Virus record (IMG/VR): IMGVR_UViG_3300048839_000203
Location: 1 to 38,173 of that record
Strand: one strand, 5' to 3'
Length of the DNA: 38,173 nt
DNA from: a virus
Shown: in pieces, positions 20,192-35,217 of the stretch
Position numbering within the stretch: position 1 is the stretch's first letter
Layout: every line of letters begins with the position of its first letter
Position numbers and translations under genes: made by a program
The notes under the pieces: model-generated
The model's database searches: none
The model's input: only the letters and a program-made list of their open reading frames with translations
Told to the model about the DNA's origin: nothing

Positions 20192-20772
20192 TGCGTGAGC
20201 TCTCGCCACTTGGCATAGTATTCCTTGTAATCGGCAAGTGTTTTGAAGTGCCGCTGTTGCGGCTCAACCATGTTACCCGCCGCCCATGCGTTGTCATAGG
20301 CGTTCATGGGACCACCAGCCTTGACTATCATTTCTGTGGTCATCGTACCACCTGTGGCCGGTGTAGCCTCACGCGGTGCCAATGCGCTGCCAAGTATCCC
20401 CATTCCACCAGTGACAGTATTTGAAGCCGTGCCGGTTGTAGTGGGTTCGGGTTGATTGAACGCTGCCCAAATTGAATCACGCTCGCCGGGGTCTATGAGG
20501 CCGTACCCTGCTGCGGCATCAAACAAGGCATTGATATCACCTGCTCCATACTTGGCATAGGCGGCCTGCGGGCCCTCGCTCCTGAGCGTTGCGATGAACT
20601 CACTGGCTTGATTGAAGTCTTTTGAAAGCTGCTGCGTCTGCGGTCCGGGAAGCCGGGTATTGTCTCCCCATGATATTTTGGGAAGGTTCCATGCGGGCTT
20701 TTTCGGCTGGAAGTAGTCGGATATTGCCGTGATCCTCTCGCTTTGCGCTGACGGGTTGTTATAATCTGACAT
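20188..20772 (-). CDS. Hypothetical protein, last gene of the left arm
   Basis: A 194-residue protein with a Pro/Gln-rich start, a helical middle (FNQASEFIATLRSEG) and a Thr/Gly/Ala-rich low-complexity segment (residues about 110-150). The composition resembles virion proteins, and the MSDYNNP start recalls the MSDVNYN start of the gp20-like protein, but I see no real homology. ATG at 20772 has GGAGG upstream. The TAA stop overlaps the TAA of the converging right arm. Function unknown; a minor virion or lysis accessory protein is possible. Confidence 0.6.
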   Translation of the reverse strand: MSDYNNPSAQSERITAISDYFQPKKPAWNLPKISWGDNTRLPGPQTQQLSKDFNQASEFIATLRSEGPQAAYAKYGAGDINALFDAAAGYGLIDPGERDSIWAAFNQPEPTTTGTASNTVTGGMGILGSALAPREATPATGGTMTTEMIVKAGGPMNAYDNAWAAGNMVEPQQRHFKTLADYKEYYAKWRELTH

Positions 20773-21200
20773 TACATACCTCCTAGAATATCGCCAGGAT
20801 TATCAGCACTATCGACAAGGCTGTCGAGCCTGCTGCCCATAGTTTCAAGCGCAGTATTCGCCGCTCTAATAGTTTCAACATGCGCCCGGATTGCGCCAGC
20901 AAGTCCTCGTATCTGTGCAGTGACTGTGCCGAGTCTTCCAATGCCAGCGAGGCTTTCTTCAAGTCCTCTTGCACTGTCATCAATTGCACTCTGAGCGATT
21001 CCAATTCCCTCTCTGACAAGCTCGCCAGTTCGTCTAGCATCCTCGAGATCTCGTCCAAGCTGGTCAAGCTGTCCTCGATACTCGGCAATGGCGTAATCCT
21101 TGATTCTGCCCATCCTTGAGCTTCCAAGCCAGAATCCGCTGCCAAAGGCAATGCAAGCGCACAAAGCAACAATACCGACAATAGCCATAGTTTTCTGCAC
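20772..21200 (-). CDS. Overlapping second frame: spanin-like coiled-coil protein (uncertain)
   Basis: This 142-codon frame lies almost wholly over the 20783-21205 gene. It starts at GTG 21200 with a hydrophobic anchor (MAIVGIVALCACIAFGSGFWLG) and continues as a helical, coiled-coil-like periplasmic part, the plan of an inner-membrane spanin. Its stop overlaps the next start as TAATG, as real genes here do. Against it: it uses many AGA, CGA and GGA codons that neighbours use sparingly, and a shifted hydrophobic or coiled-coil sequence easily looks hydrophobic again. It is either an overprinted second spanin or a chance frame. Confidence 0.4.
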   Translation of the reverse strand: MQKTMAIVGIVALCACIAFGSGFWLGSSRMGRIKDYAIAEYRGQLDQLGRDLEDARRTGELVREGIGIAQSAIDDSARGLEESLAGIGRLGTVTAQIRGLAGAIRAHVETIRAANTALETMGSRLDSLVDSADNPGDILGGM

Positions 21201-21205
21201 ATCAT
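20783..21205 (-). CDS. Spanin/lysis-type protein: signal peptide, coiled coil, C-terminal span
   Basis: A 140-residue protein with a cleavable-looking signal peptide (KLWLLSVLLLCALALPLAA then D), about 90 residues of strong coiled coil (DEISRMLDELASLSERELES, VQEDLKKASLALEDSAQSL), and a C-terminal membrane span (LWAAGSTALSIVLIILAIF). The plan fits envelope-spanning lysis proteins. ATG at 21205 overlaps the stop of the holin-like gene as ATGA with AAAGG upstream, and codon use resembles the neighbours, so I take this as the main gene of the overlapping pair. Confidence 0.65.
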   Translation of the reverse strand: MMCRKLWLLSVLLLCALALPLAADSGLEAQGWAESRITPLPSIEDSLTSLDEISRMLDELASLSERELESLRVQLMTVQEDLKKASLALEDSAQSLHRYEDLLAQSGRMLKLLERRILRLKLWAAGSTALSIVLIILAIF

Positions 21206-21387
21206 TTCCCTTTCGTGTACGAATCGGCGGCTATGTACCCGCCTGCCACTCCCACCAGCAACGGGAACGCCGTCCCCATACCGCCGGGAATGTCTCCAGC
21301 TACCACGCCGTAGCCTATTATGACAGAGCATGCCACCATAGCCCATAGGCATACCCACCATCGCCGCGATTGCCATTTGTTGTACAT
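21202..21387 (-). CDS. Holin candidate (two membrane spans)
   Basis: A 61-residue protein with a basic start (MYNKWQSRRWW), two hydrophobic segments (VCLWAMVACSVIIGYGVVAG and TAFPLLVGVAGGYIAADS) and a charged end (YTKGK). Size, hairpin topology and position directly between the peptidoglycan peptidase and the spanin-like gene fit a class II holin, which would time lysis by opening the inner membrane. ATG at 21387 lies 3 bases after the peptidase stop. No dual-start motif is seen. Confidence 0.65.
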   Translation of the reverse strand: MYNKWQSRRWWVCLWAMVACSVIIGYGVVAGDIPGGMGTAFPLLVGVAGGYIAADSYTKGK

Positions 21388-21390
21388 CTT

Positions 21391-21855
21391 TTACACCTCG
21401 AAAGCTATGCAGATATGATACCCGTAGCCGTATGGGTCATTGGCTACCCGGATCACGCGCCCGGGCATTGAACGGTTCCAGTGGATGTCATAATGGTCTT
21501 TTGTAACCCGTCGGTCAACCGGCACCAGATCGAATCCATGATGAACCTTGCGGGTTTGAAGGTAGTAATCAAGCTCGGCATATGCGGTAGTGACAACAAG
21601 CGGAACTGAAAACATGTCATCGTCAAGAAAGTATAGAAGCTGTTTGACCGGCGCGGCGGCGGGCTTTTCGGCTTCGATATCGTGCAGGCTGTACATGCCT
21701 GCGTTTTCGCCCCGGGTCAGGTCAAGGTGCAAGTGCGCGGCGGTACTCTGGCCTGAGTTGCCCATGCGGCCTACCATTTGGCCTTCAGTGATTATGTCTC
21801 CAACTTTCCATCGTGGTAGGCTGTCAAGGTGGGCAAAGCGGGCTGTCAGGATCAT
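21391..21855 (-). CDS. M23 peptidoglycan endopeptidase, circularly permuted (endolysin candidate)
   Basis: All parts of one LytM/M23 zinc-peptidase domain are present in 154 residues, but in swapped order. Residues 4-47 are the usual second half: TARFAHLDSL, a VGDIITEGQMVG strand pair, GNSGQS and HLHLDL (H41, H43). Residues about 86-154 are the usual first half: VVTTAYAELDY, HHGFDL (H105, D109 of HxxxD), then PGRVIRVANDPYGYGYHICI. Joining the C-terminus FEV to the N-terminus MILTARFAHL restores the normal order. All zinc and catalytic residues remain. The start is ATG 21855 or GTG 21858, overlapping the previous stop. No signal peptide, so a holin would be needed. Confidence 0.8.
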   Translation of the reverse strand: MILTARFAHLDSLPRWKVGDIITEGQMVGRMGNSGQSTAAHLHLDLTRGENAGMYSLHDIEAEKPAAAPVKQLLYFLDDDMFSVPLVVTTAYAELDYYLQTRKVHHGFDLVPVDRRVTKDHYDIHWNRSMPGRVIRVANDPYGYGYHICIAFEV

Positions 21856-22193
21856 CACAAACGCCCTATCAGGAACTCATCATATTCATCGAATGCCGCC
21901 GTTATGAGCTCCCTGGCTGTAGTAACATTGCCGTTACATTTACCGTCCTGCAATGCCTCCAGTGTAGCCTTATGTGCTGCAAGCTGTGGCCGTTGTAGCT
22001 TGGCAATCGCTCCGATGGCAGACATGTGCTTTGTATCTGCCTGTGACAACAATTCAACGCTTATGGTCAGTTGGTTTATGTTTTTTGACATGGTTTTCAA
22101 ACTATCAATAATCTTGAACATGCCTCGGACGGCAGAACCGGCAAGCGCAATGATGACTGCTGTGATGAATACGGCCCATGGATCAGTCGGCAT
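21855..22193 (-). CDS. Small anchored helical protein before the peptidase
   Basis: A 112-residue protein with an N-terminal hydrophobic segment (WAVFITAVIIALAGSAV) followed by a long helical part (FKIIDSLKTMSKNINQLTIS and onward). The topology, one span and a coiled-coil tail, resembles small phage proteins often placed beside lysis genes, including some holin-like or antiholin-like proteins, but no family is recognised. ATG at 22193; its stop overlaps the start of the peptidase gene by one to four bases, so the two are coupled. Confidence 0.55.
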   Translation of the reverse strand: MPTDPWAVFITAVIIALAGSAVRGMFKIIDSLKTMSKNINQLTISVELLSQADTKHMSAIGAIAKLQRPQLAAHKATLEALQDGKCNGNVTTARELITAAFDEYDEFLIGRL

Positions 22194-22218: not shown

Positions 22219-22875
22219 CTATAGTACAGGATCAGTGATAGGCTCAGGTTCAGGATACAATCTCCCGGCCACCATGTAGGTCAATCCGCCATCGGCCATG
22301 ACCTGAATCTCGTACACCGCCCGGCGCTCGATAAACTCTGCCTCGGTTTCAAGGTGTTCCTCATATTTGATTATCCCTGTATCGGTATAGATCAGATACA
22401 ACGCGTATTTTTCATAAGCTGGCCGTTCGTCAATAACAGGTATTGGTGGAGGTGGGACTCGATCAACATACAATACGCCCCCGGATGCCATAGCCTGGAA
22501 GCGCCAGACTTCTCGACGGTCGGATAGATCAACGCGCGGCCAGTCAAGATATTCTGCTATGATGTCGTGGGTCGTGGGATCGACTATGTACGCATCGGCG
22601 GGCGGGGCTTCCTCAATTGGGACAATTTCTTCGCCTTCGATCAGGAATAGTTGGTCTTCGGTGTGCGTGAGATTGTATTCCTCGGCGTAATCGGCATAGC
22701 TCTGGATCGTGGTTACTGATCGTGAAACTGCCCTGGATTCAACATATCCCTCTTGCACAATCTCCCATGCTGAGTTGTAAAGGCGGACGTTGATTGGATC
22801 TGGAGTAATGTTGACCGTTTCGGTGCAAGAAAAAAGCAATGGCAACAGGAAGATCATTAAGATTTTATACTTCAT
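22219..22875 (-). CDS. Putative lipoprotein
   Basis: A 218-residue protein with a signal peptide and lipobox (MIFLLPLLFSC, Cys at about residue 17), so it would be lipid-anchored in the envelope. The mature part contains two similar stretches of the kind REVWRFQAMASGG and RAVYEIQVMADGG, each followed by a short strand, which points to an internal duplication of about 70-80 residues. A proline-rich linker (DRVPPPPIP) lies between them. ATG at 22875 overlaps the previous stop. Phage lipoproteins often block superinfection at the receptor; here this is inference from location and signal only. Confidence 0.65.
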   Translation of the reverse strand: MKYKILMIFLLPLLFSCTETVNITPDPINVRLYNSAWEIVQEGYVESRAVSRSVTTIQSYADYAEEYNLTHTEDQLFLIEGEEIVPIEEAPPADAYIVDPTTHDIIAEYLDWPRVDLSDRREVWRFQAMASGGVLYVDRVPPPPIPVIDERPAYEKYALYLIYTDTGIIKYEEHLETEAEFIERRAVYEIQVMADGGLTYMVAGRLYPEPEPITDPVL

Positions 22876-33954: not shown

Positions 33955-35217
33955 TTAGAAGGTGATGATACCGGACATCTCGGGCTGTTTGTTCACAACC
34001 CCAAAGAGGGTATCGAGGCGGTACTTGGTCCGCATGGTGTTGATGTCGTACTGTTTCTGCATAACCAGTTCAATGCCCTGGTCAGTGGTAGCACGCATGA
34101 CAGCCGCGCCTGCATCGGTCGGGACAGCATAGCGTCCGGGCAGGATCTCGATAGCTTCCTTGTGCCAGAAGGGATTCGCGGCCCGTGCGGTAGCGTTCAG
34201 GAATACGATTGCGGAGTTGGCAACCGGGGTCTGTACAATACAGTTCTGGTACTGGAGTTCGGGATCGGTTCCACCCTGGCCGGTGATGAGAGGCGGGCAT
34301 ATCGTGGCGGTATTCGCGCCGTCGATGGAAATGATCCTGAAGGTCTTGAGCTGTCCGGTTGACTGCTTGGTGATGTGATGTACGGCCTCGACGGTCGCAA
34401 CAGTGAATGCGTCGCCGGCTACAACGCCAGCGGCCTGCACACCGGCAATGGTAACCTGCTGGAAGCGGTTGTCAACGTTGGAGCGTTCGCCTGCTATGCC
34501 AACCTGGGTAGCCTGCGGAACGTAGACGTTGCCACCGCCTGCAGTGGTGTCAATGACAAGCGCTGCGGCAGCCTGGGCGGCCAGACGAACGGCATAATCC
34601 AATTTGAAGGTGTCAAAAGATGCAATGCGGCCAACGTATGCACGCTCGTATGCGGTAGTAGGCTTGCCGGGCATGTACTGGCGGGCGGCCAAATCAGCGG
34701 CCATGCCGTTGTAATCGCGGGTTGACAGAGCCAGGTAGCGGTCGTAATCCGGGATGCCTTGCTCGTTCATAATGGCTTCGATTGCGGCCACATCGGCAAA
34801 GCCGGTCGCTGCAACGCCACGGGCTACCACAAGCGAACCCTGAAGTGCGGCCACGTTCATTACGGCAATGTTGATATCGCTTGCCAGCTTCTGCTTGGCA
34901 GCGTCGCCAAGGCGGTTTTCCTGCAAGGCATCACGCAGCTCGGTTGCGGTCATGACCCACGGGACGGACTTTGAGAATCCGATGGTTGCGGGTACGCTGA
35001 GCTGGGTCTGATCCTTGAAGTTGAGCGTCTGGTCGGTGCCATCGAAAGACTGAGCGATGTACGGCTCGGGACGCCAGATGACGTTTCCGGTCCGCTCCAT
35101 CATTGACTGATCGGTATTGTATACCGCCACGTTTTTTGACAGAACAAGCGCGTCCTGGAATCCTTCAAGGATATCCTCGAACGCCACCCGTTCCTCTTTG
35201 CTGAACTCATTAGGCAT
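33955..35217 (-). CDS. Major coat protein, P22 gp5-like
   Basis: A 420-residue coat protein with HK97 fold as in P22 gp5 (430 residues). Landmarks shared with gp5 by eye: a helical N-terminus, GNVIWRPEPYIAQSFDG (P22 NTIWMPVEQESP), MTATELRDALQ, SNVDNRFQQVTIAGVQ (P22 NVDNRFATVTLS), the inserted domain region with FRIISIDGANTATICPP, and FWHKEAIEILPG (P22 FWADDAIRIVS). ATG at 35217 lies behind a long structured leader and a dedicated promoter, fitting its need for high expression. Next comes a probable decoration gene. Confidence 0.88.
   Translation of the reverse strand: MPNEFSKEERVAFEDILEGFQDALVLSKNVAVYNTDQSMMERTGNVIWRPEPYIAQSFDGTDQTLNFKDQTQLSVPATIGFSKSVPWVMTATELRDALQENRLGDAAKQKLASDINIAVMNVAALQGSLVVARGVAATGFADVAAIEAIMNEQGIPDYDRYLALSTRDYNGMAADLAARQYMPGKPTTAYERAYVGRIASFDTFKLDYAVRLAAQAAAALVIDTTAGGGNVYVPQATQVGIAGERSNVDNRFQQVTIAGVQAAGVVAGDAFTVATVEAVHHITKQSTGQLKTFRIISIDGANTATICPPLITGQGGTDPELQYQNCIVQTPVANSAIVFLNATARAANPFWHKEAIEILPGRYAVPTDAGAAVMRATTDQGIELVMQKQYDINTMRTKYRLDTLFGVVNKQPEMSGIITF

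Follow-up and report, generated by a model that had tools for sequence, protein, structure and literature searches.

The window analysed here, the whole 38,173-nucleotide stretch formed by positions 1-38,173 of viral record IMGVR_UViG_3300048839_000203, carries on its minus strand, at 21391-21858, a small gene that very likely encodes a circularly permuted M23 metallopeptidase serving as the phage endolysin. The open reading frame (ORF) lies where the sequence-only reading had placed it: counted from the ATG at 21855 the protein has 154 amino acids, and an in-frame GTG three bases earlier, at 21858, shares bases with the stop codon of the gene upstream (GTGA), pointing to coupled translation. 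Along the chain, the motifs follow one another as AHL (H9), GNSGQST, HLH (H41, H43), VVTTAY, HHGFD (H105, D109), GRVIRV, and GYGYHICIAFEV; the five catalytic residues, H9, H41, H43, H105, and D109, are thus all kept, at the positions given for them in that reading. The stop-to-stop frame spans just 161 codons, so that an ordinary N-terminal half-domain (N-half) cannot hide upstream, and no second M23 was found in the window beyond this gene. The gene and its parts, including the C-terminal half-domain (C-half) that now comes first, are as follows.

21391-21858, minus strand: gene of the permuted M23 peptidase, the likely endolysin
21703-21849, minus strand: M23 C-half, residues 3-51, with the AHL strand (H9), VGD..GQMVGRMGNSGQST, and HLHLDL (H41, H43); matched by PF01551
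21598-21702, minus strand: new linker between the old C- and N-termini, approximately residues 52-86; low predicted local distance difference test score (pLDDT) at 52-58 and 68-76
21394-21597, minus strand: M23 N-half, residues 87-154, with the VVTTAY strand, HHGFD (H105, D109), an insert of ~8 residues, and the GRVIRVANDPYGYGYHICIAFEV hairpin strand, which ends at the new C-terminus

The same permuted gene was found in an independent contig, IMGVR_UViG_3300036987_000545 (L002), at L002:5001-5465, where it shows 129/154 identities (84%) without a gap, an ATGA overlap at the corresponding place, and the same five catalytic residues, which are invariant across both members.

Of the Pfam families, PF01551 matched the C-half alone, with profile positions 47-91 of 96 at residues 5-50 (E 1.7e-8, above the gathering score), and the HxH motif and upstream AHL histidine of M23 peptidases both fall within this match. 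The second half, searched alone, gave no match in Pfam or NCBIfam and no meaningful one in PHROGs or the PDB sequences. Hidden Markov models (HMMs) were built from ordinary M23 proteins of bacterial genomes and viral contigs, split at the hairpin that joins both halves. The whole-domain HMM (31 proteins) returned two out-of-order matches, profile positions 71-116 at residues 4-50 and 20-64 at residues 97-150, which is the pair that the sequence-only reading had proposed to look for. With the first N-half HMM, the second half scored 13.0 bits, a value reached by none of 20,000 shuffled sequences; a larger N-half HMM, built from 79 M23 sequences with the permuted family left out, aligned continuously over residues 86-150, scoring 18.5 bits for the best domain and 20.2 bits when the second half was scored by itself, and again 0 of 20,000 shuffles reached the score (shuffle maximum, 10.8 bits). 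Among 8525 ORFs, the N-half HMM ranked both permuted genes directly below all true M23s (E ~1e-3; 9e-4 for the window gene), with unrelated ORFs at ≤9.4 bits. Judged by these scores, the N-half match is well beyond chance.

Profile-profile comparison by hhalign placed the N-half profile at residues 81-151 (probability 94%, E ~1e-7) and the C-half profile at residues 3-51 (probability 99.1%, E 5e-19), and gave no match between the N-half region and the C-half profile. In a MAFFT alignment from which C-half rows were omitted, the HxxxD of 40 of 41 phage M23 N-halves fell unaided on H105-D109, which also align with the HxxxD of the M23 N-half profiles. The N-half match covers columns 17-79 of 79 and ends at residue 150, and the C-half match covers columns 3-50 and starts at residue 3; the new termini therefore lie in the inter-half hairpin loop, with nothing missing or duplicated. 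Whereas the M23 chain order is HxxxD, AHL, HxH, that of the window protein is AHL, HxH, HxxxD, which makes it a permuted variant instead of a regular member of the family. A rotated M23 profile aligned in one piece across the whole protein, with a score not much above that of the C-half alone. A weak match to NCBIfam NF052336 spanned residues 5-110 of the window protein and just 5-50 in L002, and its extension was taken as chance. At the level of sequence profiles, the predicted protein is confirmed as one complete M23 domain containing each half once, in exchanged order.

An M23 C-half fused to an unrelated C-terminal domain, with HHGFD and GYG there by coincidence, would account for the recognition of the C-half alone by the Pfam, PHROGs, and PDB-sequence searches. 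This explanation is strongly disfavoured and very improbable, as the N-half profile match reached E ~1e-7 in a single-sequence test, was equalled by 0 of 20,000 shuffles, is contiguous over 62-66 residues, and recurs in both divergent members; a lone C-half would moreover be without the HxxxD zinc ligands.

The two permuted genes share ~72% DNA identity and have the same order and junctions. Between them, synonymous changes are saturated (pS 0.818) against few non-synonymous changes (pN 0.118), similarly in the C-half, linker, and N-half; in the linker stretch alone, pN is 0.13 against a pS of 0.97. Both halves and the linker are thus all kept as protein, and by these comparisons two divergent phages each carry the permuted gene intact, under purifying selection. 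The order is unusual enough to raise the question of an artefact of assembly or rearrangement, or of a scrambled gene in decay, other permuted cases being absent from 80 viral loci; this explanation is refuted, and its residual probability is negligible, given the same order and junctions in an independent contig at that DNA identity and the contrast of saturated synonymous with few non-synonymous changes. Misassembly, which the sequence-only reading had named as grounds for giving up the permutation, is excluded on the same evidence.

The 80 loci were the best viral matches whose DNA encodes a similar C-half, and each was examined for motif order. Every complete locus had the normal order except L178, which is the contig of L002 itself; the 5′ end of L207 is cut off, and the automatic motif test missed L245 and L252, which have a normal upstream context. 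No further permuted homologue besides L002 was found in 369 gammaproteobacterial genomes, GTDB genome contigs, plasmids, and the phage collection. Three sets of candidates were set aside: two short half-M23 ORFs from a Microbacteriaceae genome are truncated at contig edges, a degenerate DNA pattern for WNR..GYG gave 120 chance matches and none related, and L005, as a relative of the second half, was a chance match in a frame that appears to sit opposite a DNA methylase reading.

Structure prediction was consistent with the profile matches. When ordinary phage M23 proteins were supplied to AlphaFold2 as half-domain fragments, each in its own alignment row (30 N-halves, 10 C-halves), the run gave one compact domain (pLDDT 75, predicted template modelling score 0.73), with pLDDT of 82-95 at residues 1-50, 86-94 at residues 121-154, and ~46-49 in the linker. 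Strands were predicted at 86-91, 108-112, 123-125, 132-140, 145-153, 2-10, 27-32, and 41-48; read in this way, as expected from the old N-terminus, the eight modelled strands would be in the M23 order rotated by half, and the hairpin opened by the permutation would correspond to strands 145-153 and 2-10. The permutation put forward from sequence alone, with C-half motifs ahead of N-half motifs, is accordingly upheld by three lines of evidence: the complementary out-of-order profile matches, the homologue, and the AlphaFold2 model.

The endolysin assignment draws on the surrounding genes. The window belongs to a P22-like podovirus, with a coat protein (PF11651), a stabilisation protein (PF11134), and a gp7-like ejection protein, and the genes next to the permuted gene are as follows.

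21855-22193, minus strand: 112-aa protein, hydrophobic in a stretch at its N-terminus, whose gene is translationally coupled to that of the permuted M23
21202-21387, minus strand: 61-aa protein with two hydrophobic stretches, a holin candidate, 70% identical to its L002 counterpart
20772-21200, minus strand: Rz-like inner spanin, 142 aa, with an N-terminal hydrophobic anchor (phrog_2975 Rz-like spanin, E 3.4e-4)
20783-21202, minus strand: second spanin-like ORF with an N-terminal hydrophobic stretch, MMCRKLWLLSVLLLCALALPLAADS, nested almost completely, in a different frame, within the Rz-like gene

The 61-aa holin candidate matched no family, and Pfam identified no other cell-wall hydrolase in the lysis block. 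When the lysis blocks of the window and L002 were compared, similarity was detected for the permuted M23 (84%), for the 61-aa protein (70%), and for nothing else. Two further contigs found through the 61-aa protein, L263 and L265, have the same cassette with a DUF261 protein in the slot of the permuted gene, and the 112-aa neighbour shares 42% identity with the product of L263:2281-2601, which precedes the endolysin slot there. In coat-related phages, the late operon ends with genes for an M15 peptidase or a GH108 muramidase. The cassette context, the exchange with DUF261, and the M15 and GH108 genes of the coat relatives together identify the slot as that of the endolysin; the Rz-like match, the 61-aa neighbour, and the slot exchange are what an endolysin gene within a lysis cassette with spanins and holin would show, and they back the placement in a lysis block with an endolysin role that had been proposed at the outset.

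A folded and conserved permuted M23 could instead be an accessory or regulatory lysis factor, depend on a partner, or form a domain-swapped dimer, without being the main endolysin. Non-enzymatic, degenerate M23 factors do exist (PMC9662197), and the low model confidence in the linker leaves room for an exchange of halves between two chains. However, regulatory M23s lose catalytic residues, whereas all five are invariant in both permuted members; no other cell-wall hydrolase is available by Pfam in the lysis block of the window, and the filling of the same slot by other proteins in sister cassettes speaks against an accessory factor. This alternative is consequently considered improbable, and the permuted M23 is taken as the endolysin itself.

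Several points nevertheless weigh against that interpretation. The known members number two, and the 61-aa protein was called a holin from size, hydrophobicity, and position only. AlphaFold2 with only both permuted sequences gave a pLDDT of 35, and for the better model the alignment rows were hand-selected such that half-domain fragments sat on the matching half, alignments that mixed N- and C-half fragments having collapsed onto one half before this selection; with curated rows, the model is supportive: it shows compatibility and does not prove homology independently. Foldseek, run as a sequential aligner against PDB and BFVD, gave no significant match, with no M23 among the best 50 listed, a result tempered by the expectation that a sequential aligner overlooks permutants; the weak top PDB matches, at E 0.12, were chains of RNA polymerase beta-prime, among them a beta-prime insert.

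Taken with these points, the protein is probably a naturally occurring, catalytically active permuted M23 endolysin and the first permutant of its family, its new termini lying within the inter-half hairpin. The chain would form a single M23 domain of the barrel-sandwich type, with one zinc bound by H105, D109, and H43; H41 and H9, in their usual M23 roles, would activate water and stabilise the transition state. Presumably without a signal peptide, the enzyme would accumulate in the cytoplasm until the 61-aa holin candidate makes the inner membrane permeable; once released, it would cut the peptide cross-links of peptidoglycan, and the Rz/Rz1-like spanins would then complete lysis. An ordinary M23 gene was presumably duplicated in tandem, fused, and trimmed; no remnant of an M23 duplicate was seen in the window, and no evolutionary intermediate was found.

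M23 peptidases, with lysostaphin, LytM, and the EnvC/NlpD regulators, are among the best-studied wall-cutting enzymes. The family review presents one very conserved fold, describes the catalytic roles of the zinc-site residues, and makes no mention of permutation (PMC9662197). The earlier statement that no described permuted M23 endolysin is known agrees with the literature searched, in which no published permuted M23 was found; that literature leaves out most subscription papers, and the result is not proof of novelty. On the sequence evidence, the gene very probably encodes a functional enzyme of cell lysis whose form that literature does not describe. If so, this natural permutant would show where the M23 chain opens without loss of function and would support seeing the M23 domain as a pair of exchangeable half-motifs. 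Domain searches of the standard kind return permutants as half matches only, and more may thus have been overlooked; with two members diverged to synonymous saturation, activity and structure are directly testable.

The window protein shares with M23 proteins (PF01551; LytM, lysostaphin, and phage M23 endolysins) the HxxxD, AHL, and HxH motifs, both half-domains, and the predicted strand set, and with the phage endolysins the character of a small, putatively cytoplasmic lysis enzyme; it differs from ordinary M23s in its exchanged halves and new termini in the central hairpin, in the ~36-residue linker between the old ends, and in the ~8-residue insert after HxxxD. The best precedent is offered by the permuted NlpC/P60 proteins (YaeF/G6R and LRAT-like families), in which a catalytic domain of the cell-wall-hydrolase type is naturally permuted yet keeps its catalytic set (PMC6403190, PMC10318531), although theirs is an unrelated papain-like cysteine fold and not a zinc peptidase. 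The HABAS barrel-sandwich set includes an M23 peptidase, and its topologies are related by circular permutation (PMC11515920). RNA polymerase beta-prime inserts, one of which is among the weak top Foldseek matches of the model, include such HABAS domains; these domains, however, are non-enzymatic, permutation there links distant families and not a working M23 enzyme, and the Foldseek value is insignificant.

The DUF261 (PF03196) proteins of L263 and L265, at L263:2601-3008 and L265:2595-3008 in cassettes otherwise like that of the window, resemble the permuted M23 in their slot between a 107-112-aa gene and a 61-63-aa holin candidate, but are unrelated in sequence and without M23 motifs. They contain a Cys near the N-terminus (GCYFL), followed later by HFVL and D, and their sequences suggest that DUF261 may be a cysteine-type endolysin. 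Paired spanin-like ORFs of ~110-150 codons, overlapping almost fully in different frames and each with an N-terminal hydrophobic stretch, occur in four phages: in the window at 20772-21202 (minus strand), and at L002:5659-6013, L263:3189-3546, and L265:3192-3650. Between the tail fibre and lysis genes, the window also encodes a 217-aa protein (22219-22872, minus strand) with a lipoprotein-like signal (LLFSC) and no family match. The P22-type coat protein, at 33955-35217 on the minus strand, has Pseudomonas phage PfAn1 as its nearest named phage (56%), and its nearest records are phages from the Manatee Spring metagenome (62-66%).
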